Shown here: positions 36,356 to 55,802 of the stretch, piece by piece
How positions within the stretch are numbered: position 1 is the stretch's first letter
How the letters are laid out: each line of letters opens with the position of its first letter
Source of the DNA: Verrucomicrobiia bacterium DG1235
GTDB taxonomy: Bacteria > Verrucomicrobiota > Verrucomicrobiia > Opitutales > Opitutaceae
Length of the DNA stretch: 64,000 nucleotides
Reading direction: 5' to 3'
Assembly (NCBI GenBank): GCA_000155695.1
Contig: DS990593.1
Span: forward strand, 40,131-104,130
Notes under the pieces: generated by a model
Databases searched by the model: none
The model's input: the letters and a program-made list of their open reading frames with translations, nothing else
What the model was told of the DNA's origin: nothing
Program-made: the position numbers and the translations under genes

Positions 36356-36373
36356 CAAATCCTATAAATTAAT

Positions 36374-37480: not shown

Positions 37481-37492
37481 GGGGCTGTTTTT

Positions 37493-37521: not shown

Positions 37522-37949
37522 TGGCTGAGTTGATATTAAAAGATGAATGCTACCGAGTGGTTGGTGCTTGTTTTGAGGTTTATAAAGAAAAGGGAAATGG
37601 TTTTCACGAGGCAGTTTATCAAGAATGCCTTGAGATTGAATTTGAGTTGAGTGCGGTTCCTTCTGTTGCTCAATTGCCCTTGAGTCTTGAATACAAAGGT
37701 AAATTACTTTCTCAAAAGTACATACCTGATTTTCTGTGCTTCGATCAGATTGTTTTGGAAATCAAGGCAGTGAAAGCTCTCTTTGATGATCATCGCGCAC
37801 AGTTAATAAACTACCTTCGAGCGACAGGAAAGCCTTTGGGTTTACTCGTCAATTTCGCCTCTTTTCCGAAACTAGAATGGGAGAGGATAGCTTATACGAC
37901 CCGAATCTGGTTTTCGCGATTTTTCGCGTATCTAGCGGTTAGAAACTAA
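37521..37949 (+). CDS. GxxExxY protein (PD-(D/E)XK nuclease-like)
   Basis: The 142-residue protein carries the family motif [17 protein letters not shown] (G..E..Y) and a PD-(D/E)XK-like core: [20 protein letters not shown] with Asp and Glu-x-Lys. [22 protein letters not shown] follows, also typical. Its biochemical function is unknown. The ATG at 37521 overlaps the left repeat by one base, and the last coding segment ([10 protein letters not shown]) is itself written by the right inverted repeat. Position inside an rfbB-rfbA pair and the flanking repeats suggest an inserted element. Codon use is AT-richer than its neighbours. Confidence 0.85.
37911..37940 (-). repeat. Right inverted repeat flanking the GxxExxY gene
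   Basis: The reverse complement reads AACCGCTAGATACGCGAAAA then ATCGCGAAAA. It pairs with the element at 37493 across a 389-base interior and lies inside the 3' end of the coding sequence. Confidence 0.75.
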
Positions 37950-37963
37950 AACAATTAATTATA

Positions 37964-38842
37964 ATGTCTTCAAAACCTAGAAAAGGAATCGTTCTGGCCG
38001 GTGGGTCGGGAACACGTCTATATCCTTGTACGATTGCAGTATCCAAGCAGTTGATGCCGATCTATGATAAGCCCATGATTTATTACCCTGTTTCCTTGCT
38101 GATGCTTGCGGGAATTAAGGATATATTGATCATTTCTACTCCTCAGGATACGCCACTTTTTGAGCGCCTTCTTGGTGATGGCTCAGCGTTTGGAGTTAAC
38201 TTCAGTTATGAAGTTCAGCCCAGTCCTGACGGTTTGGCTCAGGCTTTTCTCATTGGTGAAGAGTTTTTGGATGGCGCTCCTGCTGCACTCGTTCTGGGAG
38301 ATAACCTTTTTTATGGGCATGAGTTGGTTCGCACCTTAAAGTCAGCCGACTCTCGTAGAGAGGGCGCAACTATTTTTGGATACAACGTGGCGGATCCGAC
38401 TGCCTACGGTGTTGTCGAATTCTCCCCTGATGGAAAAGTGCTTTCGATCGAAGAGAAGCCTGAGAATCCAAAATCCAACTACGCGGTTCCTGGACTCTAT
38501 TTTTACGACGAGCGAGTAGTGGAGTTTGCGAAGCAGATAAAGCCATCGCCGAGAGGCGAGCTGGAGATTACTGATCTGAATCGGGTGTACCTTGAGAATG
38601 GTGATTTGAGTGTGGAGCTTTTGGGCCGAGGAACGGCTTGGCTGGATACGGGTACTCACAAGAATCTAATGGAGGCAGGTCAATTCGTGCAGGTTATCGA
38701 GGAACGTCAAGGGCTCAAGATGGCTTGTTTGGAGGGGATCGGGTTCGAAAATGGTTGGTTGAAGCGGTCTCAATTGGAGGAGCGTATTCAGTTTTTGGGG
38801 AAAACAACTTACGCGACCTACCTCCGGAAAATGCTGAAATAG
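37964..38842 (+). CDS. rfbA: Glucose-1-phosphate thymidylyltransferase
   Basis: The 292-residue enzyme makes dTDP-glucose from dTTP and glucose-1-phosphate. It has [20 protein letters not shown] (nucleotide loop), [33 protein letters not shown] with the metal Asp, and FDxx-type [20 protein letters not shown]. Length matches RmlA. It is 14 bases downstream of the GxxExxY gene and supplies substrate to RfbB. Confidence 0.97.
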
Positions 38843-41046: not shown

Positions 41047-42402
41047 CTAACGCTTGATGCCGAGTCGATCGATCAGTTCGTAGAAGGTCGGTCGGCTGAT
41101 ACCTAGTTCGGCTGCTGCTGCGGTGACCTTGCCTTTGTGCTTTTTGAGGGCAGCCTCGATCATCTCTTTCTCTAGGGATTCGCGAGCCTCTTTGAGAGTC
41201 GTTCCAGACGGAATCGCTCGGGTGCTAGGAAGCTGCAGATCTTCGGGGTTCACCTTGTTTCCCTCGCTCATGATTGCGGCGCGGCGTACTCGATTCTGCA
41301 GTTCTCTTACATTACCTGTCCAAGGGTAGGAACGAATGCCTTTTAGGGCGCTGGCACTGAAGCTCAGGTTAGAGTTTCCTGCCTCTGCGGCGAATCGCTT
41401 GAGAAAGCTCGTGGCTATAAATTCGATATCCTCGCCTCGATCGCGTAAAGGAGGAAGATTGAGTTCGACGACTGAAAGCCTAAAATAGAAATCCTCGCGA
41501 AAGGAACCGTCGGCCATGCCTTTTTTCAGGTCCGCGTTAGTGGCCGCTACGATTCGGGCTTTGACAGGGATTTGCTCCCTTCCTCCAACGCGCTCGATAT
41601 AGCTTTCCTGCAAGAATCGGAGTAGCTTCACCTGGACGTTGAGCGGAACTTCGCCGATTTCGTCGAGGAAGAGGGTTCCGCCGTTTGCTTGTTCGATTTT
41701 GCCGATTCGTTTCCCGTCCGCGCCGGTGAAAGATCCTTTTTCGTGTCCGAAGAGTTCGCTTTCGAGGAGTGATTCCGGGATAGCGCTGCAGTTTATCGCG
41801 ACGAACGGGCCGTCTACTTGGCTGGAGCGATTATGAATGGCGCTTGCCACCATTTCCTTGCCGGTGCCGCTTTCGCCGAGAATCATTACGGGAGCATCGC
41901 TTGTCGCGACTTTGCGAATAAGGCCGAAGACCTTTTGCATGGGTTCGCTTGTTCCGAGCATGCCTTCGAATGCGTCTTCGTTGAGCTTTCTTTGCATAGC
42001 GACGTAGTCGCGTTCCAAGTCCGCTACGTAGTAGCAACGTTTTAGAACAAGCTGGAGCTCTTCGGTATCCACCGGTTTTGACATGAAGTCGTAGGCGCCG
42101 CGTCCTATCGCCTCGAGCGCGTTGTCACGTTCTCCTTGTCCGGAAATAATAATGACCTTGGTCGCGGGCGAGATTTGAACGATCTCTGCGAGGGTGTTCA
42201 TACCTTCGTCGATGAGGTTGGGTCGAGGCGGTAAGCCGAGGTCGAGCAGTACGACGGGAGGCGAGTTTTCTTTGAATGCTTGGAGGGCGCCTTCGCGGTT
42301 GCCCGCTTGGAAAATTTCGTAGTCCGTACCGAGCGACCAACGCATTTGGGTACGGATTTCTTCGTCGTCATCGACGATCAAGAGCTTGGGTTTCGGCGGC
42401 AT
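41047..42402 (-). CDS. prsR: Sigma-54-dependent response regulator PrsR (PEP-CTERM-type)
   Basis: The 451-residue protein has a receiver domain with phospho-acceptor Asp54 (VVLLDLGLPPRPN), a sigma-54 AAA+ domain with Walker A GESGTGKE (176-183), the sigma-54 contact loop as GSFTGA (223-228; usually GAFTGA) and Walker B FLDEIG. It ends in a Fis-type helix-turn-helix (KVTAAAAELGISRPTFYELI). The long DLGLPPRPNLIDEGM loop after the phosphorylation site is typical of the PEP-CTERM-associated regulator PrsR. It would receive phosphate from the PrsK-like kinase 1.5 kb away and switch on sigma-54 promoters, such as those proposed before the VPDSG-CTERM genes. Known relatives in Zoogloea control PEP-CTERM genes with RpoN. 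Confidence 0.9.
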   Translation of the reverse strand: MPPKPKLLIVDDDEEIRTQMRWSLGTDYEIFQAGNREGALQAFKENSPPVVLLDLGLPPRPNLIDEGMNTLAEIVQISPATKVIIISGQGERDNALEAIGRGAYDFMSKPVDTEELQLVLKRCYYVADLERDYVAMQRKLNEDAFEGMLGTSEPMQKVFGLIRKVATSDAPVMILGESGTGKEMVASAIHNRSSQVDGPFVAINCSAIPESLLESELFGHEKGSFTGADGKRIGKIEQANGGTLFLDEIGEVPLNVQVKLLRFLQESYIERVGGREQIPVKARIVAATNADLKKGMADGSFREDFYFRLSVVELNLPPLRDRGEDIEFIATSFLKRFAAEAGNSNLSFSASALKGIRSYPWTGNVRELQNRVRRAAIMSEGNKVNPEDLQLPSTRAIPSGTTLKEARESLEKEMIEAALKKHKGKVTAAAAELGISRPTFYELIDRLGIKR

Positions 42403-42526
42403 GTTCGAAAGAGGAATTTTGTGTCAGGTTTTCTTACAGTATCTGCCTAACAATCGGAATATGAAGCTTTTTCTGAAGTTGAGTAGGGGAAGAATTAGTG
42501 AGTTTATGACGAGGAGTGGTTCGTCT

Positions 42527-42556
42527 ACCGCGAAAGACGCTAAAGGGCGCGAAAGA
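42527..42556 (+). repeat. GCGAAA-type repeat, well-preserved copy
   Basis: ACCGCGAAAGACGCTAAAGG then GCGCGAAA matches the left repeat of the GxxExxY gene at nearly all positions, 5 kb away. Two weaker copies follow at 42611 and 42655. Confidence 0.7.
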
Positions 42557-42733
42557 GTTGGGATGTGGTGATCCTAGGGGGTGTGAATGGAGTGATCCGG
42601 CTCTGGGGATTTAACCGCTAAGGTCGCGAAGGGATCCTGCAATGTGGGGTTCGAACGGCTAAGTTCACTGCGGGCGCGAAGGTGGTTTGAGGTTGGATTA
42701 TCGCGACCGAGGTCGCTTCCCACAAGGATTTTG

Positions 42734-42830
42734 GGGTTTGGCTCTGGGTTGTGGATTTTGGATTTCGAATTTTGGGTTTGGGATCTTTTTCTGGGTTCTG
42801 GATTTCTCGAATGCTCTAGATTTTGGATGT
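42734..42830. repeat. Degenerate G/T-rich tandem repeat
   Basis: Imperfect units based on TTTTGGGTTTGGGAT and GGATTTTGGATTTCGAATTT fill about 100 bases. No unit is exact. It abuts the terminator at 42831. Confidence 0.6.
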
Positions 42831-42862
42831 AAAAAGCCCGCCGTTTCGAAAACGGCGGGCTG
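42831..42862 (-). terminator. Terminator of the VPDQS protein gene
   Basis: 12-bp stem AGCCCGCCGTTT/AAACGGCGGGCT, 3-base loop, then TTTTT on the minus strand. It lies 27 bases past the stop at 42889. Confidence 0.92.
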
Positions 42863-42888
42863 TAAGTTCTTTGGTTGGGAGTGTCAGA

Positions 42889-43566
42889 TCAGGTACGTCT
42901 TGATTTGATTTTCCGATTTAGGACTAGGACGAGGAGAAATACGGTGCCGAATAGGCTGAAGGTGGAGCTTTGATCCGGAACCGAACTTGCGGTCAATTTC
43001 TGACCGGTATTTACGCTTCCCTTGGTGTTTTGAATGGGGCCGGTCCAGGTCCCTTTACCAGCAAATCCTAAAAATTGGAGGCTTTCTTGGTCGGTGTTTG
43101 AAGATGATTCTTGCACCCCAATATCAACGCTAGTGATAGGAGCGGGTAGTATACCGAAATTAGTGCTGAGGACTCCTTCGTAGCTTATGAATTGAAGGAT
43201 CGAAGTGCCGATCTTTAGGGCGAGACCGTCGTTGGGACCGTTTTGTATCCCTGAGATATCAACAGTACCGAATCCGAATCCATTGGTTATGTTGCTAATG
43301 ACTAAACCACTTAGGTCGCTGTTATCGCTGTACGTAACATTGCCTGAACTAGACGTTTCGACTCGAATTAGCTCCAAGCCTGACAAGGAGGCTCCTGATT
43401 TTACGGCGAGTTCGACGAATTCCTCTTTGTCAGCGCCGGAGTTATCATAATGGATCTCATTGATCCAAACGTCTTTGATGGAGATGGCGTGGAGGGATGA
43501 TGAAGCCAGAACAGCTAGGATAGTGGCGAGACGCAGCTTCGCCACGAGGTGGTTGTGCCTTTTCAT
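42889..43566 (-). CDS. Exported lamin-tail-like protein with variant VPDQS C-terminal sorting signal
   Basis: The 225-residue protein has a signal peptide (LRLATILAVLASSSLHA). Then comes IKDVWINEIHYDNSGADKEE with EEFVELAVKSG, the opening of a lamin-tail (LTD-like) beta-sandwich. The C-terminus has VPDQS (196-200), a hydrophobic stretch STFSLFGTVFLLVLVLN and a basic end RKIKSRRT. This is the three-part layout of VPDSG-CTERM proteins, but the fourth residue is Gln rather than Ser. It sits between prsR and prsK, inside the exosortase locus, and is probably a substrate of the exosortase encoded at 49.3 kb. It has its own terminator. Confidence 0.8.
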   Translation of the reverse strand: MKRHNHLVAKLRLATILAVLASSSLHAISIKDVWINEIHYDNSGADKEEFVELAVKSGASLSGLELIRVETSSSGNVTYSDNSDLSGLVISNITNGFGFGTVDISGIQNGPNDGLALKIGTSILQFISYEGVLSTNFGILPAPITSVDIGVQESSSNTDQESLQFLGFAGKGTWTGPIQNTKGSVNTGQKLTASSVPDQSSTFSLFGTVFLLVLVLNRKIKSRRT

Positions 43567-43912
43567 AGTTAGAGGAGGATTTGGATTATCGTTAGGATGC
43601 GATTCTTAACGAATCGGTCATCGGGCGGATGGGGAATTGTCCGCCAATATTGGGATATACAACCTAATGGTCAAGTATTACCTTTAGGTATGAAATAGCA
43701 CTTATACTTGTAGTGGTCTGGTTGAATCTGTGCTGATATCTGTTTTTCACGATTTGGAGCTGTGGCAGCGGCCCCGCAGTTCTCGTAATCTGCGCGAAGC
43801 GATTCAAGGAGGAGATCGATTCAGGCTCGTAGGGTGAATCGGGAGGGTAGAGGTTCCTTCTGTCTGATAGCCAAGGGCTTAGTACGAGCGACGGGGGCTT
43901 TGGCTCGACTGA
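43567..43912. other. Intergenic region between the VPDQS gene and prsK
   Basis: No gene is seen in these 346 bases. A hairpin GGCGGA/TCCGCC lies at 43624-43645. A longer dyad CAAGTAT...ATACTTG has arms at 43672-43678 and 43704-43710. I found no sigma-54 pattern on the minus strand before the VPDQS gene. Confidence 0.45.
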
Positions 43913-46015
43913 CTAAGCTAAGGGTAGGCGAATCGAGAAGGTGGATCCGTGATTTTCTCTGCTCACTACGGTTATCGAACCACCGTGGGCTTCAACTATC
44001 ATCTTGCTTTGAAAAATACCTATACCGAGACCGCTTTTCTTAGTGGTCTTGAAGGGGCGAAAGAGAGAGGAACGAATAAACTCGTCGCTCATCCCACAGC
44101 CGCTGTCGGTCACGTTCAGAACTGCGTGCGACCCATCTCGTTCTGTTCTCAGTGCGATTTTTCCATCTTCGTCGATTGCCTCGCAGGCGTTGATGACGAG
44201 GTTGAGGATCACGCTCTTAAGCTTGATTTTGTCAGCTCTGATTTGGAGGTCATCACTCAGGGAGCTTTCAAACTGAACGTGACTCGGCTGTTCCCACTCT
44301 TTGATTGCGTGGTTTGCGAGCTCGGAGAGGTCTAGCTTTTGAGGTGAAATCTCAAGCTCGTGCCGGACCTGGCTTAATCGGTTGATCAGGTTCGTGATGC
44401 GTTCGCTGGTATTGCCGAGTCCTCTCAAGGCATCTGCTCGAAATTCGGGGTTGTCCCAATGCTTCGGCATATTCTTGAGCATCAGGTTCAAGGTTGAGAC
44501 GGCGTTTTTGAGATCGTGCACGAAGAAAGTCGCCATCGTCTGAAAGGCTTCGATCTCATTGGATTCTTCAAGTTTTCTCGTGAGAGCGGCGCTGAGAAGG
44601 CTGGCGGCAACGTGATCACTTATGCAGCTCAGTGTATCGAATTCCTGTTGGGTGAATTTTAAGGTGTTTGTCCTGTCTCCGAGCACCATAAATCCAACGA
44701 CCCGCTCCTGCCCGGTGAGCGGAACGAGAATCCGATTTCCGCCTTTTGGGAATCGGCTTGTATTTGAAGCAACAATGGTCTTGGTCCAGCTCTCTTTTTG
44801 CTTGTCTAGATTGATAGGAGCGGGGTGGGCGAGTAGCTCTTCGGGAATGCTTCCAGCTTCGATGTGGGTCGCTTCTGAATCCAGATTTTGGTCGGTCTTC
44901 TGATCGGAGGATGCCGCGAGCAGAAACTGGGTGTTGCTGGGTTCGAGGAGCCAGATGCTTGTGAGCTTAGTGTCGAAGAGGTTGGAGAGTAGTTTTGTTG
45001 TTGAAAGGCAGATGTCCTTTTCTCGAACGCTTTGAGACGTGGCATTGGTCACCTTTAGCCAAAGCGTTCGATAGTCATAAAGGGGACGTTGGAAGTTTCT
45101 ACTGACGAAGCGGCGAACGATTTGGCGAGCGCGGTCGGATTGAACGAGGAGTACGAGTCCGACGAGCGCGATCAGGATGAGAAAGGTCTGGATTGCGAAG
45201 GCCTGATCGCCTCCCAAGTGTCCAATTACTTTTGAGAGTACTCCGACGATGATCAGGTAGGCGCCGGCGAGCGATATAACAACAGAGCCGCTGATAATTG
45301 ATTGCGAGGGGTATAGATCTATTTCGAAACTTCCTCTTCTAAGGAGTGACCGACCGACAAGTAAGCAACAGATAAGCAGTGCAGCGGCGTTCACTGACTC
45401 TAGATTTTGGTCAATCTCTTGAGCCAATACAATTTGACTACTGGTAAAGAATCGCGCGGCGAAAAGGGTTCCCATGCCAAAAAGCATGAATTTGATTTTC
45501 CAGCGAAGGGTGCCGACGGATGCTCGATAGGTTCGTTCCAGGCCTACCAGGGCGCCAATCATCGAAAGCAAAAATACTATATGCAGGAAAAACCCAGCCC
45601 ACTCAAGATGCACGCTCCATTGGAAGGGCAACAGTGGATCCTTCGTTAGCCGAGCAAGATGATCGGGAGCCAATAGAACGAGGAGAATTGGTACTATAAA
45701 AGCTAATACAATTATAGGAAGTCGCTTGCCGATCTTTTCCTTAACGTTGCCTCGCGAATAGGTGGCGGCGAATAGAAGCCAGAGTCCTGGCAGAAATGCG
45801 CTTGCTACAAACCTCCAGCGAATCAGTTGGGCGATTTCGAGGGGTTGATTGGCTCGAATTGCAAGTCCTGTCAATAATTGCTCTACTGCGAGGGCCAGCA
45901 TCCCCAGTGAGAAACTCCATTGGGGTAGGGTGTGACGTTTGCTGAAGGGGGCGAAGGCTACGAATACCGCCGCCAAAGCAGCGCTGGTGTATGAGAACAG
46001 CTCGGGTAGGTTCAA
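43913..46015 (-). CDS. prsK: PrsK-like membrane histidine kinase (PEP-CTERM system)
   Basis: The 700-residue sensor kinase has an N-terminal half with about eight to ten membrane helices (residues 1-295), a GAF-like domain (about 325-475; CLSTTKLLSNLFDTKLTSIW) and a kinase core. The core has the phospho-acceptor His500 in FFVHDLKNAVSTLNL and an HATPase domain (NLVINACEAIDEDG, VTDSGCGMSDEF, GLGIGIFQSKMIVEAHGGS). The large membrane sensor plus GAF is the PrsK layout. The start is a TTG; no better in-frame ATG precedes the first helix. It lies 51 bases downstream of prsT and should signal to PrsR. The stimulus is unknown. Confidence 0.9.
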   Translation of the reverse strand: MNLPELFSYTSAALAAVFVAFAPFSKRHTLPQWSFSLGMLALAVEQLLTGLAIRANQPLEIAQLIRWRFVASAFLPGLWLLFAATYSRGNVKEKIGKRLPIIVLAFIVPILLVLLAPDHLARLTKDPLLPFQWSVHLEWAGFFLHIVFLLSMIGALVGLERTYRASVGTLRWKIKFMLFGMGTLFAARFFTSSQIVLAQEIDQNLESVNAAALLICCLLVGRSLLRRGSFEIDLYPSQSIISGSVVISLAGAYLIIVGVLSKVIGHLGGDQAFAIQTFLILIALVGLVLLVQSDRARQIVRRFVSRNFQRPLYDYRTLWLKVTNATSQSVREKDICLSTTKLLSNLFDTKLTSIWLLEPSNTQFLLAASSDQKTDQNLDSEATHIEAGSIPEELLAHPAPINLDKQKESWTKTIVASNTSRFPKGGNRILVPLTGQERVVGFMVLGDRTNTLKFTQQEFDTLSCISDHVAASLLSAALTRKLEESNEIEAFQTMATFFVHDLKNAVSTLNLMLKNMPKHWDNPEFRADALRGLGNTSERITNLINRLSQVRHELEISPQKLDLSELANHAIKEWEQPSHVQFESSLSDDLQIRADKIKLKSVILNLVINACEAIDEDGKIALRTERDGSHAVLNVTDSGCGMSDEFIRSSLFRPFKTTKKSGLGIGIFQSKMIVEAHGGSITVVSRENHGSTFSIRLPLA

Positions 46016-46066
46016 AGTATATAGTGAGGTTGTTGTCTCCGCAAAAAACGCGAAGATGCTTTGTCT

Positions 46067-49000
46067 CTACATTTCGGAGTTTATTCTTTGCAGGGCAGTG
46101 TTGGCGCTTTCGCTGAATTTCGATGGGAGCCCGTTCTCTATCGCCTCAGTGAGTAATGCTTTGGCTTGCTCCAGTTTGCCCGTCTCGACAAGAGACATGC
46201 CGTAGTAGTATGTCCAAATAGGAGACGTTCGCTGACCTTCTGGAATTAATACAAATTGCTGAACCGATCTATCGTACTGTTTTAAGATGTATTGAGCGAT
46301 GGCTTGTACAGCGATGACTCTCGGCGTGTTTCCGATCGCCGATCGGCTCTCTCTGGCAAGTCGGTATGCTTTAGCCGCTGTCTGTTCAGAATCTAGAAGC
46401 AGGGAGGCGAGCTCTAGTTTGGCCTGAGCTTGTTCCGGATAGTCCTTTATTATTTCCTCATAGGCGACTACAGCCGGGGATGAGTTTTCAGATCCTCCCA
46501 TTGATTTCGCTCTTACTAGACGAGCGACTAAATCGTTCGGGTTTAGTTGCTGATCAACATCTGGCGTGGCGCTCGATTTTAATGCCAAAAGCCCTGAGCT
46601 TACGTTTTGCGCGTCCTCCTTTTTAGTGCCCCCATTGAAAAGGTTGACGGCTTTGGTGGCCGAATCAATGGCATCATCTAGTTGTCCAACTGCTATCTTA
46701 GCTCGCGCAGATTCTAGTCGTACGTCGGCGTTATTAGGGAGTTGACGTTCCACTTGGCTGAAAAGGCTGGCTGCCCAAGTGTAGTCCCTCGCTTGATAGG
46801 CGACTTTCGCCTGGGCGTAGGTGACTTCAATATCGTTGGGCCTTTGTATCTCAGCCGATTTCGTCAGTTCGATCGCTTCCTCTGTCGAGCCAGTCTCTGA
46901 CAGCGCCAGGGCGAGGTTTAGCTGAGCGAGCAAATTCGTCGGATAGTCTCCAAGGGTTTTGCGGAACTGTGATATGGCGGCCTGGCTATCGCCTTTTTCT
47001 CGGTTGATGATTCCAAGTTTGACGGTTGCGATGGGGTCGTTGTTTGCGCTCGATTCTTCGAGGATACTCAGGGTTTCATCGCTTGGATTGGAGGTGTCTA
47101 TTTCGAGTATTTTTAGTTTATGCAGGGCGTCTTCGCGTCCATTATATTGATCCTCGCCTGCGGTTGCGACTCTGAGAGTTCTTTGGGCGTCGTCGATTTC
47201 TCCAAGCGCGTAGGATGCCGCTCCTACGTGATAATTGACTTCTGCATTGTCGGTTAATCGTGAGAGTGAATCGAGTAGAAGAGCCTTGGCGCGAACAAAT
47301 TCTTTCCGCTGATACAATATCCAGCCTAGAGTGTCCGCTGTGAAAGGGCTCGTAGGGGCTACTTTTCTGGCGCTCTCTGCGAGTTCTAGCGCTTTGTCTG
47401 TTGGCCCGTCTTCAATTGAAATGAGATATGCTAGGTTGTTTAAGGCCGCCAAATTCTGTGGAGCAAGGTTGAGTATTTTTCCATAGGATTCCCTTGCTTC
47501 CTTATAATTTCTTTCTGCCTCGTAGAGACTTGCGAGGCTGGTAAGTGTTGTTATGTCCTCGGGATTGTTTTCGAGTATAATATTAAGATGCTCGAGGGCT
47601 TCGTCTGTTCGGTTTAGCGATAGGTAAAAGCGGCTTAATAGTGTATGAGCTATTCGGTTTTCAGAATCTAGTTCGATAGCCTGTTTGAAGGAATCCTCTG
47701 CTTCGTCTCGTCTTCCCATGGCATTGAGAATTTGAGCTTTTATCACGTGTAGAATACTTGTGTCGGGCGCGAGCTGGAGTGAGTCGCTGATACGTTGAAG
47801 AGCGGACTCGTAACTTCTTTCGCTTAAGTCTAAAGCGGTCAATTGCTCGACTGATTGGAGGTGCAGAGGGTTTGACTTGAGGGCGGACTCGAATGCTCGA
47901 CGGGCTTCGTCTCGATTTCTGCTTCTCAGTTGAGTGATGCCGGAGAGGTAGCTGATGTCAGGTGTGGATTCGGCTTGCGAATCGATCTCTTCGTAAAGGG
48001 CAAGGGCTGCGTCATAGTTACCTTGTCTATTGTAGGCTTCTGCTAGCAGCAGTTTCGCCTCAGAAGATTCAGGACGATTGGCGACAAGGTTCCTCAGAGT
48101 AATGATTGCTCCGCTAAAGTCTCCTTCCTCACTCTGCAAGCTTGCCAAGAGGATAGCAGTTTCGATGCTGCCCGGCGCGTTAGCTCCAACGAATTCGAGA
48201 GGGGCTTTGGCCTTCGTTTTCTGGTTGTTCGCGATGTAGGCGAGAGCTAGCTGGTAATTGGCCTTTACGTCCTGAGGGTAGAGCTCAAGCATAGAAGTTA
48301 GTATGGAAATAGCGGCGTCGTAATCTTTGGAGCTTGCTGCAATTACGCCCTTCAGCCTCAAGGCGGTGGGCTCCATGGGATCGAGTTTCAGGACCTCAAG
48401 ATTGAGTTTTTTCGCGTCCTCTATTCGATTTGCTTGAGCGTAGAGTTCGGCAAGCCTTGTTGCGATTGGAATGAAATCGGGAATTTCATCGTTCAAAGCT
48501 TCGAGGTAGGCGAGGGCTTCATCAGGCTTCCCTAGTCTTTTCGCGATGTGGTCGGCGTAGGCTGCTCGTATGCCTGTCCGCTTCGGGGTGTACTCTGCTG
48601 CCTTTTCCAAGGCCTCTGTTGCAGCTTCGAGCTGACCTTGCGACATCGCGATCGTGAATTTGCCGCTATAGGCGGGGCCGAATTCTGGGTTCAGTTCGAG
48701 TGCTTTGTTTAATCTTGTTTCCGCTGATGTTAGCGCTTGGCGCTTAATGTCCAGAAAGGCTCTTGCGGTGAGAACCGCAGGCGACTCTTCCAGCTCTCTC
48801 AGGATCGCGTCCCCCTGCGATAGGTCGGCAAGGCTTTGGATCGAATCGGCTACGATCAGTGGCGCGTTTTCGTTTTTAGGGTCGCGGGCTAAAATCTTGG
48901 CTGCTTCTTGCCTCGCTACATCTGGCCGCCCAGCGATGAGGAGCAGTGACGCATGTTTTACTAGAACGCTTGTGTTTTCAGGGTCCAAGCTTTGAGCGGC

Positions 49001-49264
49001 ATTCAGAAACGGGAAGGCTTCTCTGAAACGTCCTTGGTTAAAGTACAAAATGCCCATGCTCGAAATCGCTTCAGGATTTCGATTGTCGGCCTTTAGCACG
49101 TTTTTGAGTTCGATTTCGGCTGCGGGATAGTTTTCCGCCTCCATGTAGTCGCGGACTTTCAGAAGGGTGCTTTCGACATTTGGCTGTCTCGAGCAAGCTG
49201 CAGCAAGTAGGACAATAACGATTAGAGCGATAGTACCAGATAAGCTAGCTACTGGGCGTTTCAT
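46067..49264 (-). CDS. prsT: PrsT-like TPR-repeat lipoprotein
   Basis: The 1065-residue protein has a signal sequence ending in a lipobox (VLLAAACSRQP, Cys24), so it should be lipid-anchored in the envelope. The rest is a long run of tetratricopeptide repeats (for example ALNPEFGPAYSGKFTIAMSQ, KANYQLALAYIANNQKTKAK, AALNNLAYLISIEDGPTDKA), over twenty by eye. This matches PrsT, the giant TPR lipoprotein encoded beside exosortase, PrsK and PrsR in PEP-CTERM loci. Its role is probably scaffolding of export or glycan assembly, by analogy only. It is 42 bases after the exosortase gene in the same transcription unit. Confidence 0.88.
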   Translation of the reverse strand: MKRPVASLSGTIALIVIVLLAAACSRQPNVESTLLKVRDYMEAENYPAAEIELKNVLKADNRNPEAISSMGILYFNQGRFREAFPFLNAAQSLDPENTSVLVKHASLLLIAGRPDVARQEAAKILARDPKNENAPLIVADSIQSLADLSQGDAILRELEESPAVLTARAFLDIKRQALTSAETRLNKALELNPEFGPAYSGKFTIAMSQGQLEAATEALEKAAEYTPKRTGIRAAYADHIAKRLGKPDEALAYLEALNDEIPDFIPIATRLAELYAQANRIEDAKKLNLEVLKLDPMEPTALRLKGVIAASSKDYDAAISILTSMLELYPQDVKANYQLALAYIANNQKTKAKAPLEFVGANAPGSIETAILLASLQSEEGDFSGAIITLRNLVANRPESSEAKLLLAEAYNRQGNYDAALALYEEIDSQAESTPDISYLSGITQLRSRNRDEARRAFESALKSNPLHLQSVEQLTALDLSERSYESALQRISDSLQLAPDTSILHVIKAQILNAMGRRDEAEDSFKQAIELDSENRIAHTLLSRFYLSLNRTDEALEHLNIILENNPEDITTLTSLASLYEAERNYKEARESYGKILNLAPQNLAALNNLAYLISIEDGPTDKALELAESARKVAPTSPFTADTLGWILYQRKEFVRAKALLLDSLSRLTDNAEVNYHVGAASYALGEIDDAQRTLRVATAGEDQYNGREDALHKLKILEIDTSNPSDETLSILEESSANNDPIATVKLGIINREKGDSQAAISQFRKTLGDYPTNLLAQLNLALALSETGSTEEAIELTKSAEIQRPNDIEVTYAQAKVAYQARDYTWAASLFSQVERQLPNNADVRLESARAKIAVGQLDDAIDSATKAVNLFNGGTKKEDAQNVSSGLLALKSSATPDVDQQLNPNDLVARLVRAKSMGGSENSSPAVVAYEEIIKDYPEQAQAKLELASLLLDSEQTAAKAYRLARESRSAIGNTPRVIAVQAIAQYILKQYDRSVQQFVLIPEGQRTSPIWTYYYGMSLVETGKLEQAKALLTEAIENGLPSKFSESANTALQRINSEM

Positions 49265-49306
49265 CTTGATTTTATTGGTTTGGATAAAGTGTTCTCAGGG
49301 TGAGGG

Positions 49307-50257
49307 TCAGGCTTGGCTCTGGTCTTTGTTACTCGATCTTTCGGATCGCCAGAAAAGGTACAGCAGGGCAAAGAGTGGAATGAGGGTGACTACGAAGAGC
49401 GGTTGCCCGCCTCTGTTGTGAAACCATCCGTGGATTTGTTCGGGACCGTACTGGTAGCAAAGTTGTGCCAGTATTAGGATGCGAATTCCGTTTCTCGCAA
49501 TGCCGAGGGGAATCACTAGGAAGACGATTACCGCTCTCTTCCAAGGCTTTTTAAGAAACAGGTAGGAGCCGACTAGGCTTGTTATAAAAAGTACCAGCGT
49601 CGATCTGATGCCGCTGCACTGCGGCGCTACTTCCATGTCGATAGTGGGCATCTCAAAGATAAGACCTGTTCGAAAGATGGGAACGCCGGAGGTTTTGATG
49701 AGCCAGTACGCAGCATCCGCGGACGCGTGCTGGAAAAAGGTCTGAATCGCGATTTTAACCTCAGGGTGGAAAGGTACTAGAAAGAGAAGTAGGAAAATAG
49801 GGAAGATATTCGTTCTGACCGCATCCCTGCCGGCAAGGGCGACTATGGCGCCGATCAGAAAGCTCACGTATGCTCCCATGGCGAAGAATAGATACGCTTC
49901 GCGTTCGTCTCCCCCGCTTGGGTCGAGTTCTCTTTGGATGAATAGGGTTAAGAGCGCAGCTCCTACTAAAGCTGGAACGATCGCGAGAGATCGAAGGGGA
50001 GAGGAGGCTTTGGTTTGGCCTCGGTTTTCCCAAACGAGGTAAAGTGAAACCACAGGTATTAAAAGCGTGTGCGAGTACAAGTCGCTGCTCATAGCCAGTT
50101 CCCAAAGGTGGAGGAGCTGTTTTCCGAACACTGCAGAGAGTAGGAGGATGGCTCCGATCAAGGTATATGAGAGACGCAGAGGCGGCACTATCTGCTTTTT
50201 CTCGTTTTCAGGGTCCTTGGAACTAGCCTCAGGCGCTTCGGATCGGGGGTGCTTCAT
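49307..50257 (-). CDS. xrtC: Exosortase, probably the VPDSG-CTERM-specific type (XrtC)
   Basis: The 316-residue polytopic membrane protein has the exosortase catalytic set: Cys214 in APQCSGIRST, Arg255 in GIARNGIRI and His280 in HGWFHNRGGQ. About eight membrane helices surround them. Exosortases cleave C-terminal tripartite signals such as PEP-CTERM and VPDSG-CTERM during export. Two proteins with canonical VPDSG tails lie just upstream on the other strand, so the VPDSG-specific class is the natural call; this rests on context. No EpsI-type C-terminal extension is present. It leads the xrt-prsT-prsK unit. The first 25 residues are cytoplasmic and charged. Confidence 0.9.
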   Translation of the reverse strand: MKHPRSEAPEASSKDPENEKKQIVPPLRLSYTLIGAILLLSAVFGKQLLHLWELAMSSDLYSHTLLIPVVSLYLVWENRGQTKASSPLRSLAIVPALVGAALLTLFIQRELDPSGGDEREAYLFFAMGAYVSFLIGAIVALAGRDAVRTNIFPIFLLLFLVPFHPEVKIAIQTFFQHASADAAYWLIKTSGVPIFRTGLIFEMPTIDMEVAPQCSGIRSTLVLFITSLVGSYLFLKKPWKRAVIVFLVIPLGIARNGIRILILAQLCYQYGPEQIHGWFHNRGGQPLFVVTLIPLFALLYLFWRSERSSNKDQSQA

Positions 50258-50642
50258 TTACTAGGGACTGGCGTCGGTATAATTGGATTCTTCAGTACTT
50301 GTCACAGATAGAGCTCAATCTGCCAAGCAATTCGTTGCAGGGCTTTTCATCGCCATTTTCTGCGAAAAGCTCAGCGGAAAACGGAGTAAATCTGATTTTA
50401 TGGGTAATATGCCTCTCTGCTTGGCTCGGGTGTCCACTGTGATTCCGGCAGGAAAGCTTCTCTAAATCCCCTCGAAACTGTCAGAAAACCTTACAATGTC
50501 GGGATTATTGGCTTAATTCGCTCATTATCAGTGCTTTATGAATGGGTGAGTTTGCTAAAGGCACGAGTTGTACGGTTTTACTGACAAAGTACAGGACTAC
50601 ATTTTGCACCTTAGCCAAAGATTTCAAATTTTGTTTCCTATT

Positions 50643-50669
50643 GTAAATATCTGTTAGTTAGGTATTTAC
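50643..50669. promoter_or_regulatory. Candidate activator (PrsR) operator dyad
   Basis: GTAAATA and TATTTAC, exact 7-base arms separated by 13 bases, centred about 55 bases upstream of the proposed -24 element. Binding by PrsR is inference. Confidence 0.4.
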
Positions 50670-50708
50670 TGGTAGCATCGTAATAGTGTCTGAGTAATTC
50701 TCTCTGAG

Positions 50709-50725
50709 TTGGCATACTCAATGCG
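50709..50725 (+). promoter_or_regulatory. Candidate sigma-54 promoter (-24/-12) of the first VPDSG-CTERM gene
   Basis: TTGGCATACTCAATGCG has the required GG-N10-GC spacing and TTGGCA at -24. The -12 side reads ATGC rather than TTGC. The GC lies 44 bases before the ATG at 50769. Confidence 0.6.
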
Positions 50726-50768
50726 TTAGTACAGGTCCAAACACAGAAATTTAAACCTTAGCTCAATT

Positions 50769-51440
50769 ATGAATAAACTAGTAAAAACAATTATCGCGGT
50801 GGCTTCTCTCGGCGTAGCTTCCGTAGCTAGTGCGGCTTTGATTCCAGCAACTGGCACAGTCCACCTTGAAAACACTCCGTATGACGGCGGCACTGGCAGC
50901 TACAACATTGGCGGTGGCGAGTTTGAAGCCACGATCGCAGGCTTTGGCACTTTCTACACCTTCTGTGTAGAGATCAAGCAATCGATCGACCTCCCAGGAG
51001 ACTACGACTACACGACCTCTAACACGGTTGATTCCCAAGTTGACCCAATCTCCAAGGTTACGGCCTATCTCTACGAGCTGTTCGCAAAGGGTTCTCTCTA
51101 CGCTCGTACGCTCAACGCGGCCCATGATGAAATCGCTGGTTTCTTGCAGGCAGCAATTTGGATTCTCGAAGACGAGGATTTCTCCGGCAAAAAGCAAATT
51201 GCCAAGGATAAGTTCTTCAATGTCGCGACCAATCCCTTCATCCTACAGGTAGTTTCTAAGTACGGTACTCTCGCCGGAGCAAAGGCTGACGATGACCAAG
51301 GGAAGGTCAAAGTGCTAAACCTAACGATAGGATCCGACAAGTATCAGGACGTTTTGGTCTACGTTCCAGATTCCGGTACCACATTGGCCCTTCTTGGCCT
51401 TGGATTAGCCGGACTCGCCTTGGCTCGCCGCCGCCGCTAG
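50769..51440 (+). CDS. VPDSG-CTERM sorting domain protein 1 with thioester-like Cys/Gln motifs
   Basis: The 223-residue protein has a signal peptide (IIAVASLGVASVASAAL) and a tail with VPDSG (199-203), a hydrophobic stretch (TLALLGLGLAGLALA) and RRRR: the complete VPDSG-CTERM sorting signal. The core contains AGFGTFYTFCVEIKQS with the only cysteine (Cys66) and EIAGFLQAAIWILEDEDF with Gln127. A Cys in a YTFC-like strand and a Gln in a (T/L)QxAxW helix resemble the internal thioester domains of Gram-positive adhesins; whether a bond forms here is unproven. The protein is probably cut and anchored by the exosortase next door. A sigma-54-like promoter precedes it, a terminator follows, and a paralogue lies just downstream. 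Confidence 0.9.
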   Translation: MNKLVKTIIAVASLGVASVASAALIPATGTVHLENTPYDGGTGSYNIGGGEFEATIAGFGTFYTFCVEIKQSIDLPGDYDYTTSNTVDSQVDPISKVTAYLYELFAKGSLYARTLNAAHDEIAGFLQAAIWILEDEDFSGKKQIAKDKFFNVATNPFILQVVSKYGTLAGAKADDDQGKVKVLNLTIGSDKYQDVLVYVPDSGTTLALLGLGLAGLALARRRR

Positions 51441-51472
51441 TCGGAAAGGATTCGCTACAGTACAGTTTCTCT

Positions 51473-51504
51473 AACCCGGACGCTCTGAAGCGTCCGGGTT
51501 TTTT
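51473..51504 (+). terminator. Terminator of VPDSG-CTERM gene 1
   Basis: 12-bp stem AACCCGGACGCT/AGCGTCCGGGTT with a CTGA loop, ending in a six-T run. Confidence 0.92.
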
Positions 51505-51725
51505 GTGTCCTGCCTCAGTGGCTAAGCTTGATTTTTTTGGAATGGCGCGGGCATGGACCGGAAGGGTCCTTTTTGTAAGGATGTAAGGCGAAGCAGTCGG
51601 AATTTCGGTTCTGCTGCATGGAGTGATTCCTCTATTCTGAACTGTACGATTATTTTTATAAATTATTGTTTATAAGTGTCTTATGATCGTTTTAGGAGGT
51701 TTCTTCGTTTCGGGTGGCGCGGCGG

Positions 51726-51742
51726 TTGGCGCGCTTGCTGCA
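51726..51742 (+). promoter_or_regulatory. Candidate sigma-54 promoter (-24/-12) of the second VPDSG-CTERM gene
   Basis: TTGGCGCGCTTGCTGCA keeps GG-N10-GC and matches the YTGGCACG-N4-TTGCW consensus except at two positions. The GC lies 52 bases before the ATG at 51794, close to the spacing before gene 1. Confidence 0.6.
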
Positions 51743-51793
51743 AAAATGGAGGCGAAACTGAACCTGAAACCTCTTTCGGATCCTAAACAACAC

Positions 51794-52465
51794 ATGAAAA
51801 ACGCAATCAAGACACTCGTAGCCCTGGCTACATTAACATCAGCCACTGCCCTCAACGCGGCACTCATTCCCTCTAGTGGAACTGTGCACATGGAGAATAC
51901 CTCCTACGATGGTGGTGTAGGCAGCTACAACATAGGCGGCGGAGAGTTTGAAGCCACTATTGCTGGCTTTGGTACCTTCTACACCTTCTGTATGGAAATT
52001 GATCAAAGCATCGTCCTTCCTGAAGACTATGACTATTCTCTTTCGAACTCGGTCGATGTGAACGGAGACGTCATTTCCAAGGGCACCGCTTATCTCTTCG
52101 AGCTCTTCACTAAGGGAGCCTTGTATGCTCGCACCCTTGATGCGGCACACGATGAGTTTGCCGGTTTCTTGCAGGCAGCAATCTGGATACTCGAGGACGA
52201 GGACTTCTCTGCTAAAAAGCAAATTGCCAAAGACAAGTTCTTCAATGTCGCTACAAATCCGTTCATCGCAGACGTAGTCGCTAAGTTTGGTTCTCTCCTC
52301 GGCGCAAAGGCCGACGACGATCAGGGTAAGGTCAAGGTGATGAATCTGACTATCGGTGGGACAGAGTATCAGGATGTATTGGTCTATGTGCCAGATTCCG
52401 GTACGACTTTGGTTTTCCTCGGTTTCGGCCTTGCGGGATTGGCGCTGGTTCGCCGCCGCCGTTAG
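51794..52465 (+). CDS. VPDSG-CTERM sorting domain protein 2, paralogue of protein 1
   Basis: The 223-residue protein has the same length as its upstream neighbour and is identical to it at most positions by eye. The signal peptide (TLVALATLTSATALNAAL) and a few loops have diverged. It keeps FYTFCMEI (Cys66), FAGFLQAAIWILEDEDF (Gln127), the KKQIAKDKFFNVATNPFI block, and VPDSG-TTLVFLGFGLAGLALV-RRRR at the end. The pair arose by tandem duplication that seems to have included the sigma-54 promoter. Start ATG 51794 aligns with the start of the paralogue; a frame opening at 51683 would place the promoter inside the gene. Role: exported, exosortase-processed surface or matrix protein. Confidence 0.9.
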   Translation: MKNAIKTLVALATLTSATALNAALIPSSGTVHMENTSYDGGVGSYNIGGGEFEATIAGFGTFYTFCMEIDQSIVLPEDYDYSLSNSVDVNGDVISKGTAYLFELFTKGALYARTLDAAHDEFAGFLQAAIWILEDEDFSAKKQIAKDKFFNVATNPFIADVVAKFGSLLGAKADDDQGKVKVMNLTIGGTEYQDVLVYVPDSGTTLVFLGFGLAGLALVRRRR

Positions 52466-52616: not shown

Positions 52617-53429
52617 ATGAATCCCATTGGACGTTTTCAGAGAGCCTGGAAAAGCAAGGTTACCAACCAGCGCCTCTACCGATCGGCCAAAGTGAATGAG
52701 GACGCTGTTTTTATTTTGGGAGCTCCGAAAAGCGGCACGACGGCAATTGCGACATTGTTGAGTATGGCCACGGGAAAATCGCTGACATCTGATTTCAAAA
52801 GGGCGATCGCTAGACCAACTTTGCAGGCGGAGCTAGCCTGTCGCCTTTTGTCTTTCGAAGATTTTGTCGATCTGTATCGGTACGAGTTTTCAAGCGATAT
52901 AGTAAAGGAGCCGTTTCTAAGTTTTCAATTGGATGATCTGGTCGGTCGATTTCCCAACTCTAGGTTTATCGGAATTGTTCGGAATCCTTTTCAAAATATC
53001 CGAAGCATACTCAACCGCCTACAAATACCCGGTACTCTTGCCGATTTGAGCTTTGAGGATTGGAGTGAGCTTCGGAAGGTTCCCGCTTGGAGGATGTCAT
53101 TGCAGTCGGAGCTGCTTGGTTACCCGGCGGCTCATTATATAGACGCGATGGCTTTTCGGTGGCGTCGAGCCTGTGAACTAATGGCGAAACATTCAGATCA
53201 ATGTTTAGTGGTAAAATATGAGGATTTCGTCGACGGGAAGAAGGGATTTGTGGGTAGACTCGCTGACGAGCTAGGGTTTCCGGTAGTCAATGATATTTCA
53301 GCGCAAGTGGATATGCAGTTTCAACCAAAGGGTAGTCGGGACGTAGATCTAAACTCCTTTTTCGGCGATAAAAACTACAGTCGTATCGATTTAATCACGA
53401 AAGAAATACGTCAACAGTTTGGCTACTGA
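52617..53429 (+). CDS. Sulfotransferase family protein
   Basis: The 270-residue protein has the PAPS-binding 5' phosphate loop VFILGAPKSGTTAIATLL (P-loop at 35-42) and a 3' phosphate segment RFIGIVRNPFQNIRSILN (Arg and Ser). It would move sulfate from PAPS to a sugar or other hydroxyl. AAGGA 5 bases before the ATG gives a good ribosome-binding site. It follows the VPDSG genes, after a terminator, and may have its own promoter. It shares only the PAPS motifs with the second sulfotransferase at 55.8 kb. Confidence 0.85.
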   Translation: MNPIGRFQRAWKSKVTNQRLYRSAKVNEDAVFILGAPKSGTTAIATLLSMATGKSLTSDFKRAIARPTLQAELACRLLSFEDFVDLYRYEFSSDIVKEPFLSFQLDDLVGRFPNSRFIGIVRNPFQNIRSILNRLQIPGTLADLSFEDWSELRKVPAWRMSLQSELLGYPAAHYIDAMAFRWRRACELMAKHSDQCLVVKYEDFVDGKKGFVGRLADELGFPVVNDISAQVDMQFQPKGSRDVDLNSFFGDKNYSRIDLITKEIRQQFGY

Positions 53430-53515
53430 ATGGCTGTTGAGAGTTTTCGTGGCCAACGCTTTCGCGAGGTTGCCTCGCTTTCACATAAACTCCGCCCATT
53501 CCATAGGATATGAGT

Positions 53516-54202
53516 TCAGTAGCTTTTCATGTACTTAGGGTAGTCATCTCCAACGCTGAACAACAAGTCCAGTATTGAAACTGCGTGTTCGAAGTCGCCC
53601 GCAATTTGAGGGTACTCTGGATAGCCGCTGTAGTCCATCCATTCCAGCTTTACGCCGTTGGCCTCGAAAAGTTCTTCCTGAATGTAGGATTTAGCTGCTG
53701 GCCCGCAAAGATAGACGTCTGCCTCGAGCTTTTTGCAGAGATCAATTATTCGCTCTTGCTTGCCCTCTATTAAGCTGAATTCGCGGCTATCGTAGATTGG
53801 GGTGTTTATTTTTAGAATGTCGCATATTCCTTCAATAAAATGTCTGTTTATGCGAGATAGTTTGTCTTCTGGGGTGGTCTCGTAGAGGTCTTTGATTCGG
53901 GCTTTAAACTTTTTGAAATAGGGAGCTTTGGAATAGTTGGAACTGATCATACCCCAGTGCTTCTGCTTCCATTTGCTATCAGCAATATGTGTTTCGTCGA
54001 TAGTCTGCTCTGTGTGCTCGAGTTTGACGGGAATAGTCAGCCATTGGCAGGTGCCGTTCAGAGTCTTGATTCGATTGCGGTTACGCCAGTCGCCTTTAGT
54101 GTATTGAACTTCGTCATAGATCACGTATTTGTCCGACATGTTGATCATGTCGAAGTTACCTTTCCAAGGGATATAGTTGGATTGTAGTAGGGCGATTTTC
54201 AT
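53516..54202 (-). CDS. WbqC-like family protein
   Basis: The 228-residue protein begins MKIALLQSNYIPWKGNFDMI and has YVIYDEVQYTKGDWRNRNRI, the WbqC family hallmark; the end includes EWMDYSGYPEYPQ. Members occur in O-antigen and polysaccharide clusters, with a proposed but unproven role in sugar-nucleotide or amino-sugar modification. It lies between a sulfotransferase and a flippase gene and is transcribed with the flippase, 76 bases downstream of it. Confidence 0.88.
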   Translation of the reverse strand: MKIALLQSNYIPWKGNFDMINMSDKYVIYDEVQYTKGDWRNRNRIKTLNGTCQWLTIPVKLEHTEQTIDETHIADSKWKQKHWGMISSNYSKAPYFKKFKARIKDLYETTPEDKLSRINRHFIEGICDILKINTPIYDSREFSLIEGKQERIIDLCKKLEADVYLCGPAAKSYIQEELFEANGVKLEWMDYSGYPEYPQIAGDFEHAVSILDLLFSVGDDYPKYMKSY

Positions 54203-54278
54203 GCGCGGTTGGTTTAAAAGTTTACTTCAGTGGGCGTGAAATGGTTTCACTCGTGAGTTTTTAGCTGTGAGAATGAGT

Positions 54279-55751
54279 TTATTGCGCTGGTTTAGACTCT
54301 GCTGAGTTTCTCCTAAACAAAATTAGCAGCTCCTTATGCTCTTTAGCTCCCAGAGCTAGGGCTAGGGCTGTGTAAGTCAATATGCCCGTGAGCATAGATG
54401 CGGATAGGCGGTGAAAATATGAGAATTCAACTAGCAGATAGTCATGAATGATGATGACAACTGATGCCATGATTACGCTAGAAATGAAATATTTGTATAT
54501 GTTCAAAAGTATTTCTCTTAGCTTTAGATTGATTAGTCCCCCCATGAAGTGGTACAGGATAAAGTAGTTAACTATAGAGGCAATGAGGTAGAATGACGCT
54601 AGTCCTTTTAATTCACCTAGGAGCAATCCGATAAACATCATTATGATTGCAAATGATTTTGTGTAGATTCCAACGTGAAACTGAAGTTTGGTGGCTCCTT
54701 GGCTTAGGAAAATGTTTCCGTTCAATGTAGAAAGTGATTGGATTGCGCCGATTGGAGCGAGTATCTTCAAAATGGGAATTGCTGCTTCCCATTTTTCGCC
54801 CAGTAGTACCATTATAAAAGACTCAGATACGGCTAATAACCCAAACATTGCTGGGAATGTGAGAAATGCAATTAGTCGGGTAATTCTCAAATAGATACGC
54901 TTAATTTTATCCTTATCGTCTTGAATAGCGGAGTATGCGGGAAACATAACGCTGCTAATTACCCTGCTTACGTTAGATATTGGCTTGAGCATTAGTGTGT
55001 ATGCTCTTGTATATATACCTAGTGCAGAATCTCCTAGTATTTTCCCGATTAGCAAATAGTCGGCGTTTCGTCTCCAGTAGTTTAGGATTTCTGTTCCTAC
55101 TAGAGGTAGGGTAAAGTTGAGTAGCTCTTTGATTGAATCTTTTTCGAAAAGAAATGCCGGACGCCATGACGATGACAGCCATAGGAACGCAGCTGTGACG
55201 AGAATTGCTACATAGCTTTGGATTATGATGCTCCAGTAGGAAAAACCTAGGTAGGCGCAGATGATGGCGGCAGTCCCAGCAACCAGTGAGGAGATGTTGG
55301 TTATGAAAGTGATTCGTTTGAAATTCATCTTCCTTCTCAGTAACGCGTTTTGAACCATGGTGAATGATTGAAGGAAAAGGGTCCAAGCGATAGCGATGGT
55401 GACTGAGGTTAGTGAAGGATTGCTGTAGAATTTCGAAACCAGAGGAGCGCACAAGCTCATCGTTACGGACATCAACAGGCTGGCAAAAATATTGATCCAA
55501 AAGACACTGCTTAGATGTTTGTCGGATGTGTTTTTTCTTTGTATTATTGCGCTCGCTAAGCCGAAGTTGACGAAAATATTCGCAAATCCGGTAAGTACCA
55601 CAACCATGCCGACAACTCCAAATTCTTCGGGAGAGAGTCTGCGAGCTAGGATTATGCCGATCACTAGGCTTATTGCCTGAGAGAGGAACTGACTCAATGT
55701 GTTCCATCTTAGGCTTGATGTAGTGATTTTTTTGAATTGGCTGGAGTCCAT
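54279..55751 (-). CDS. Wzx-type lipopolysaccharide/oligosaccharide flippase
   Basis: The 490-residue protein has about 12-14 membrane helices and the MOP/Wzx pattern, starting SLRWNTLSQFLSQAISLVIG and IILARRLSPEEFGVVGMVVV. LLNFTLPLVGTEILNYWRRN and FPAYSAIQDDKDKIKRIYLR mark the centre. It should flip undecaprenyl-linked oligosaccharide units across the inner membrane. The gene is notably AT-rich compared with the housekeeping part of the window, typical of surface-glycan genes acquired by transfer. Confidence 0.9.
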   Translation of the reverse strand: MDSSQFKKITTSSLRWNTLSQFLSQAISLVIGIILARRLSPEEFGVVGMVVVLTGFANIFVNFGLASAIIQRKNTSDKHLSSVFWINIFASLLMSVTMSLCAPLVSKFYSNPSLTSVTIAIAWTLFLQSFTMVQNALLRRKMNFKRITFITNISSLVAGTAAIICAYLGFSYWSIIIQSYVAILVTAAFLWLSSSWRPAFLFEKDSIKELLNFTLPLVGTEILNYWRRNADYLLIGKILGDSALGIYTRAYTLMLKPISNVSRVISSVMFPAYSAIQDDKDKIKRIYLRITRLIAFLTFPAMFGLLAVSESFIMVLLGEKWEAAIPILKILAPIGAIQSLSTLNGNIFLSQGATKLQFHVGIYTKSFAIIMMFIGLLLGELKGLASFYLIASIVNYFILYHFMGGLINLKLREILLNIYKYFISSVIMASVVIIIHDYLLVEFSYFHRLSASMLTGILTYTALALALGAKEHKELLILFRRNSAESKPAQ

Positions 55752-55802
55752 CTATAACATTGTTTCGATAGATTCGTTATAAGCTAGCGTTTTGAATCTT
55801 AC

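Follow-up and report, generated by a model that had tools for sequence, protein, structure and literature searches.

The 64,000-nucleotide stretch of Verrucomicrobiia bacterium DG1235 analyzed here (the window, from contig C5 of a six-contig, 5.78-Mb genome) very probably holds a complete island for sorting proteins with a VPDSG-CTERM tail. It lies inside an exopolysaccharide locus and is built around exosortase C (XrtC); the same high probability covers a circuit in which the histidine kinase PrsK, the response regulator PrsR and sigma-54 would govern the VPDSG genes, and a mechanism by which XrtC would process their products. The bacterium probably relies on its enzyme, lipoprotein and two-component switch to produce and anchor some twenty related surface proteins that bear the tag. 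Its parts had been catalogued previously, and the new element is DNA evidence for a predicted PrsR switch over the VPDSG genes, with two candidate boxes, two sigma-54-like promoters and one regulator all within 11 kb. Sequence comparisons support the parts, the class of the enzyme, their co-occurrence among genomes, the putative promoters and the putative box.

In the proposed circuit, a signal would activate the membrane kinase PrsK (H500), which would in turn phosphorylate PrsR at D54. Phosphorylated PrsR would bind a 17-nucleotide (nt) box, mostly 85–128 nt upstream of −24/−12 promoters, and drive transcription of VPDSG genes by sigma-54 RNA polymerase, both those of the island and those dispersed through the genome; it would also bind the box before its own gene, with probable autoregulation. 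The VPDSG preproteins would pass the inner membrane by their signal peptide and be retained through their C-terminal helix and basic end. XrtC (C214/R255/H280) would then cut at VPDSG and transfer the protein to an anchor that is either on the cell surface or linked to polysaccharide, assisted by the lipoprotein PrsT. The phosphotransfer, cleavage, anchoring and PrsT steps are modeled on known families of these proteins.

The original prediction had placed an exosortase, PrsT, PrsK, PrsR and VPDSG genes in this part of the window, and all were located there with scores above the NCBIfam cut-offs (Table 1), so that the PrsK-PrsR-PrsT set is complete by all three models. Each of the residues it had named is also present: C214, R255 and H280 in the exosortase, H500 in the kinase and D54 in the regulator. 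The match of the exosortase to TIGR04151, labeled in NCBIfam as XrtC and ‘VPDSG-CTERM-specific’, is full length (1–306 of 306). By Pfam, PrsR joins a receiver domain carrying D54 to a sigma-54 activator domain and a Fis-type helix-turn-helix, and the N-terminus of PrsT has a lipobox-like LLAAAC. The two adjacent VPDSG substrates described earlier are both real, but the island holds three, the gene between prsR and prsK having been overlooked. For VPDSG protein 2 the start is most likely at 51794, the position given in the original prediction, because the predicted signal peptide begins there and a sigma-54-like site lies upstream; 51683 would be no more than the earliest start codon in that reading frame. 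Exopolysaccharide genes flank the island (window 34696–38842 and 52617–62520); the flanking genes encode a polysaccharide export protein, sugar nucleotide enzymes (including one that we take to be RmlA), a flippase-type protein, two sulfotransferases, a glycosyltransferase and an acyltransferase.

Table 1. Genes, candidate PrsR-type boxes and sigma-54-like sites of the island (window positions)
Feature	Position	Strand	Evidence and remarks
prsR, NtrC-type response regulator	41047..42402	-	TIGR02915 586 bits, cut-off 502.6
PrsR-type candidate box TGTCAGGTTTTCTTACA	42422..42438	read on +	exact TGTCRG-N5-CTTACA match, ~20 nt upstream of prsR start codon
Third VPDSG-CTERM protein	42889..43566	-	TIGR03778 33.6 bits (cut-off 22), PF18205 36.0 bits; tail VPDQSSTFSLFGTVFLLVLVLNRKIKSRRT
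prsK, membrane histidine kinase, GAF domain, H500	43913..46015	-	TIGR02916 399 bits (cut-off 300), Pfam
prsT, tetratricopeptide-repeat (TPR) lipoprotein	46067..49264	-	TIGR02917 352 bits (cut-off 312)
xrtC, exosortase C	49307..50257	-	TIGR04151 609 bits (cut-off 300), PF09721 174 bits
PrsR-type candidate box TGTCAGAAAACCTTACA	50479..50495	.	exact match, between xrtC and VPDSG gene 1
Sigma-54-like site TGGCATACTCAATGCG	50710..50725	+	8/11 consensus positions; begins 59 nt upstream of VPDSG gene 1
VPDSG-CTERM protein 1	50769..51440	+	TIGR03778 41.9 bits (cut-off 22); signal peptide, VPDSG, helix, RRRR
Sigma-54-like site TGGCGCGCTTGCTGCA	51727..51742	+	9/11 consensus positions; begins 67 nt upstream of ATG 51794
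VPDSG-CTERM protein 2	51794..52465	+	TIGR03778 39.7 bits (cut-off 22); paralogue, 77% identical to protein 1

A genome-wide profile search for VPDSG tails and for the exosortase class, as the original prediction had proposed, gave 20 tails at E ≤ 1e-3, every one above the TIGR03778 cut-off, and a single exosortase, XrtC. There is also a single RpoN and a single PrsR above cut-off, with the next NtrC-type activator reaching 417 bits on the PrsR model. A search of the genome for PEP-CTERM tails (E ≤ 1e-3) with TIGR02595, a model that gave no control match either, found none. Of the VPDSG genes in this genome, one (L013) is interrupted by a frame shift and one (L018) runs into a stretch of Ns.

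We then compared 76 genomes of the same order, this one included. With the line for XrtC-type exosortases set by us at 236 bits (the next score is 74.5, and only 8 of the 76 genomes pass the curated 300), 14 genomes carry such an enzyme. Every one of the 14 has VPDSG tails (E ≤ 1e-4), as do only two of the other 62, G031 with eight tails and G045 with one. PrsR above cut-off was found in 12 of the 14 XrtC-type genomes and in none of the 62 others (Fisher test, 3e-12), on a limited scoring of at most 19 candidates per genome, or up to 63 in 13 genomes. The concern that the exosortase might fall in a class that does not accompany VPDSG tails is thereby excluded. Among 15 neighborhoods from 13 relatives, the gene order xrtC-prsT-prsK-prsR is intact in seven, six of which are adjoined by glmS or rmlA; in the remaining ones some gene is missing, undetected or on a different contig, and no PrsK was seen beside xrtC in the fetched neighborhood of G002. 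Relatives of the third VPDSG protein (34–45% identity) lie close to prsK/prsR in five of the 15 neighborhoods, and at one relative’s locus (L187) two VPDSG genes likewise diverge from xrtC. We count the XrtC/VPDSG enzyme-tag pair as already known because NCBIfam models name every part.

Sigma-54-like sites were scored by agreement with the −24/−12 consensus TGGCAC-N5-TTGCW (11 positions, GG and GC mandatory) 20–220 nt before the start codon, at a threshold of 8 positions or a stricter one of 9. For DG1235 the start codons were assigned manually, for the relatives by signal-peptide score. VPDSG gene 11 of DG1235, with its N stretch, was excluded from every promoter count, leaving 19, and three of the relatives’ 115 VPDSG matches lacked a usable start and were dropped, two of them in G015. 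The comparison set comprised 69 other genes of the same stretches, taken at their first start codon and with an upstream gap of at least 120 nt. At the lower threshold, sites precede 12 of the 19 VPDSG genes and 6 of the 69 others (p = 2.6e-6), compared with 0.78 of 19 in shuffles. Since start codons had been picked differently for the two sets, the count was rerun with matched choices: ten of the 19 VPDSG genes have a site when their first start codon is used too (p = 8e-5 versus 6/69), and trying every early ATG of the other genes raises their count to 9 of 69 (p = 3e-5 versus 12/19). The 12 PrsR-bearing genomes together supply 124 VPDSG upstream regions (19 from DG1235 and 105 from relatives), among which 68 have a forward-strand site; the reverse strand has one in 6, and shuffled regions in 148 of 2480. 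The stricter threshold leaves 45 on the forward strand and none on the reverse (shuffles, 30/2480), with a median position of 67 nt before the start codon.

The 17-nt box found upstream of VPDSG genes reads TGTAA-N7-TTACA, with a variant TGTCRG-N5-CTTACA. De novo Gibbs sampling of the 19 DG1235 regions returned low-complexity A-rich and AT-rich runs only. In a motif-free search for 4-mer inverted repeats, GTAA-N7-TTAC was the commonest repeat in these regions (5/19; shuffled sets reach five for any repeat in 3 of 200 trials). It also tops all such repeats with gaps of 0–15 in the 124 regions (17 versus 0.45 expected) and still ranks first with DG1235 removed (12/105). The whole 5.78-Mb genome contains 20 occurrences of GTAA-N7-TTAC, compared with 48 of its reversed control; five of the 20 lie at most 300 nt before VPDSG genes, where 0.02 would be expected. 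One of the other 15 places is within prsT; the 14 examined comprise 11 in reading frames and 3 intergenic. A sigma-54-like site lies within 260 nt at five of these 14, and because three of the five sit in reading frames, a single sigma-54-like neighbor of a box proves little.

A leave-one-genome-out matrix places the box in 48 of the 124 regions (6.2 expected), more often in those with a sigma-54-like site (35/68) than in those without (13/56; p = 0.0016). The box lies 85–128 nt ahead of the promoter in 25 of 34 box-promoter pairs, and tests for helical phasing of the spacing gave p = 0.056 and 0.025. With a matrix from the other genomes, 8 of 19 VPDSG genes of DG1235 have the box compared with 4 of 68 other genes, and box and sigma-54-like site occur together in 7 of 19 compared with 0 of 68. 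The variant (at most one mismatch) is present in 27 of 140 regions, 3 of 1400 shuffles and 1 of 69 other genes, an enrichment that is post hoc because the variant was spotted after viewing regions of genomes without a detected PrsR. In the window it has two matches only, both exact, whereas 0.23 would be expected even with one mismatch allowed. One of the two stands before prsR, where the variant was checked only after it had been noticed, although the site had earlier shown as a near match. In the 11 prsR loci compared (L186 and the second PrsR of G014 were left out), either form occurs within 500 nt before prsR in six, five of them without a sigma-54-like site, which suggests that PrsR probably regulates its own gene through this box.

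To look for the box outside this family, public genomes were scanned blind for TGTAA-N7-TTACA followed after 45–75 nt by TGGCAC-N5-TTGC, and 80 of at least 115 stretches were examined. Among the matches listed, PEP-CTERM-like genes stand at 11 of these 80 loci, which agrees with motif 1 of Haft 2006, and we therefore regard the box of VPDSG genes as the same kind as the proteobacterial one; the 11 loci are, as we take it from record titles or from the genera, alpha- or deltaproteobacterial. The scan also met nine loci of Bacteroidales or Bacteroidia (L206, L210, L218, L254, L259, L261, L268, L276 and L280) with TGTAA-N7-TTACA at 74–75 nt from a TGGCAC promoter downstream. Most of these promoters precede genes for secreted-looking proteins, and three of the loci have the arrangement twice; these boxes are probably read by a different activator with a similar box. 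A recurrent promoter in Mesorhizobium (L205, L217, L223, L225 and others) has the box 72–74 nt ahead of TGGCAC and precedes the same gene in several species.

The original prediction held that one PrsK/PrsR/sigma-54 circuit, the same as for PEP-CTERM genes, governs the VPDSG genes, and the sigma-54-like sites and boxes before these genes and prsR support it; the enzyme-tag pairing that formed part of that prediction was already in NCBIfam. Several observations weigh against this reading. The whole case for control by PrsR is drawn from DNA and protein sequence. Seven of the 19 VPDSG genes of DG1235, including the third gene of the island, have no sigma-54-like site at threshold, and one of the 12 counted sites (gene 4, at −214) may be chance. 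No box was found at five of the 11 prsR loci, and before xrtC it occurs in only 2 of 12 loci. The box-promoter distance, mostly 85–128 nt here, is longer than the mean of 63 nt given in Haft 2006 (PMC1569441). Genes other than exosortase cargo carry the box too, since Mesorhizobium and Bacteroidales promoters also matched in the blind scan. Two genomes of the survey, G031 and G045, carry VPDSG tails with no XrtC-type exosortase found there.

These two belong with G015 and G023 to the four genomes that have VPDSG genes and no PrsR above cut-off under the limited candidate scoring. Sigma-54-like sites nevertheless precede 8 of their 16 VPDSG genes (G015 0/5, G023 2/2, G031 and G045 together 6/9, with three of the nine start codons doubtful). 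Either box form (at most one mismatch) is found in 7 of the 16, a share not below that of the PrsR-bearing genomes (32/124), and a box precedes 4 of the 9 VPDSG genes at loci L316–L322 of G031 and G045. Only matches to the first-form matrix are rarer there (2/16 versus 48/124; p = 0.05). It is possible either that these assemblies are drafts without the island or that another activator reads the box. The island may be missing from them because all four are drafts, the xrtC contig of G023 is only 4.7 kb and ends within prsT, and several G031 VPDSG genes are on short contigs.

These genomes bear on an improbable alternative, that the VPDSG genes depend on sigma-54 mainly via another NtrC-type protein while prsK/prsR control, for example, exopolysaccharide genes. 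It draws on the sites and boxes retained where no PrsR was detected and on the other full-length NtrC-type activators of DG1235, the best of which is the 417-bit protein mentioned above. It fits less well with a PrsR that tracks XrtC among the 76 genomes and sits in the island, with a box before prsR itself at 6 of 11 loci, and with the same kind of box before proteobacterial PEP-CTERM genes. Still less credible, and in our judgment very unlikely, is a merely co-inherited island whose adjacency is historical and whose VPDSG genes use ordinary promoters. The 56 of 124 VPDSG genes without a sigma-54-like site at threshold would agree with it, but the site enrichment is strand-specific (45/124 versus 0/124 at the stricter threshold), and the boxes are enriched over both shuffles and other genes.

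Beyond control of the VPDSG genes by PrsR, we lean by a narrow balance to a wider reading: PrsK-PrsR-sigma-54 would be a cross-phylum control module for exosortase cargo, indifferent to the tag, with a shared kind of box (TGTMRG-N5-CTTACA / TGTAA-N7-TTACA) on VPEP genes of Proteobacteria and VPDSG genes of this family, with self-control of prsR, with a box that could reveal missed cargo, and with island cargo that may be thioester adhesins. The cargo of exosortases is made as a set, but in the literature covered, control of such sets is described only for proteobacterial PEP-CTERM proteins (PMC1569441, PMC9012009, PMC9850573, PMC3333781). If the shared box is true, the regulon of an XrtC genome would be partly readable from its DNA, and the box might lead to cargo whose degenerate tags escape tail models. 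The box has pointed to one such candidate, a secreted-looking protein (L197:2043-3793) with the VPDSS tail VPDSSVPIWLSLLVFFALCQVRSQKG, preceded by an intergenic box and a sigma-54-like site. Its end, AAVPDSSVPIWLSLLVFFALCQVRSQKG..., was reported by no NCBIfam model, those for VPDSG included.

The island’s own cargo may be covalent thioester adhesins, which we offer as a lead. When VPDSG proteins 1 and 2 were aligned with 11 relatives, C66, Q127, W131 and Q193 were among the residues invariant in all 13, and an invariant cysteine and glutamine resemble the pair of a thioester domain. The thioester model PF08341 matches residues 64–140 of protein 1 below threshold (15.2 bits versus a gathering score of 22; E = 0.03) and gave no match in the other 12 aligned proteins. 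A structure model of protein 1 was unusable (predicted local distance difference test score, pLDDT, of 35), and a profile search of the PDB yielded weak matches only (best E = 0.09).

Measured against the known XrtC/VPDSG pair (TIGR04151, TIGR03778, PF18205), the enzyme and substrates of the island score above the cut-offs and are no different in enzyme or tag; the names of these models carry nothing on regulation. TIGR03778 was presumably described on the basis of some twenty proteins from a single verrucomicrobial genome, which may be that of the window. The terms ‘VPDSG-CTERM’ and ‘VPDSG’ had no match in the open-access literature searched, and among the matches listed there no title or abstract opening dealt with control of VPDSG genes, both being weak statements.

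Mutant and binding studies of other exosortase systems provide the closest functional parallels. In the floc former Zoogloea resiniphila, prsK and prsR mutants led to the report that PrsK-PrsR and RpoN control PEP-CTERM genes (PMC9012009), which bears out what the original prediction had said of this organism. In floc formation by Aquincola tertiaricarbonis, pepA is RpoN1-dependent, with a mapped −24/−12 promoter (PMC9850573). The island differs from both in having VPDSG instead of PEP-CTERM proteins, and in that mutants were made there and control is predicted from sequence here. The response regulator DVUA0057 of Desulfovibrio vulgaris was predicted to control PEP-CTERM genes, and its five predicted targets were enriched by DNA-affinity-purified chip (DAP-chip) analysis (PMC3333781). 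We infer that it is a PrsR; unlike the PrsR of the island, it is plasmid-borne and of the PEP-CTERM class. A further comparison is with the PEP-CTERM/EpsH (XrtA) system of Haft 2006 (PMC1569441), where PrsK, PrsR and PrsT are named and placed in an exopolysaccharide setting; the parts of that paper covered here list none for Verrucomicrobium spinosum. In that paper a 17-nt motif 1, with TTTACA as its end, is separated from a sigma-54 motif 2 by a spacer averaging about 63 nt, both motifs occurring only in Proteobacteria among the species discussed. The island resembles that system in exceeding the PrsK, PrsR and PrsT models, in its tag with helix and basic end, in its exopolysaccharide neighborhood and in its sigma-54-like sites preceded by a 17-nt box whose last bases are TTACA, and differs from it in that the exosortase is XrtC and the tag is VPDSG.

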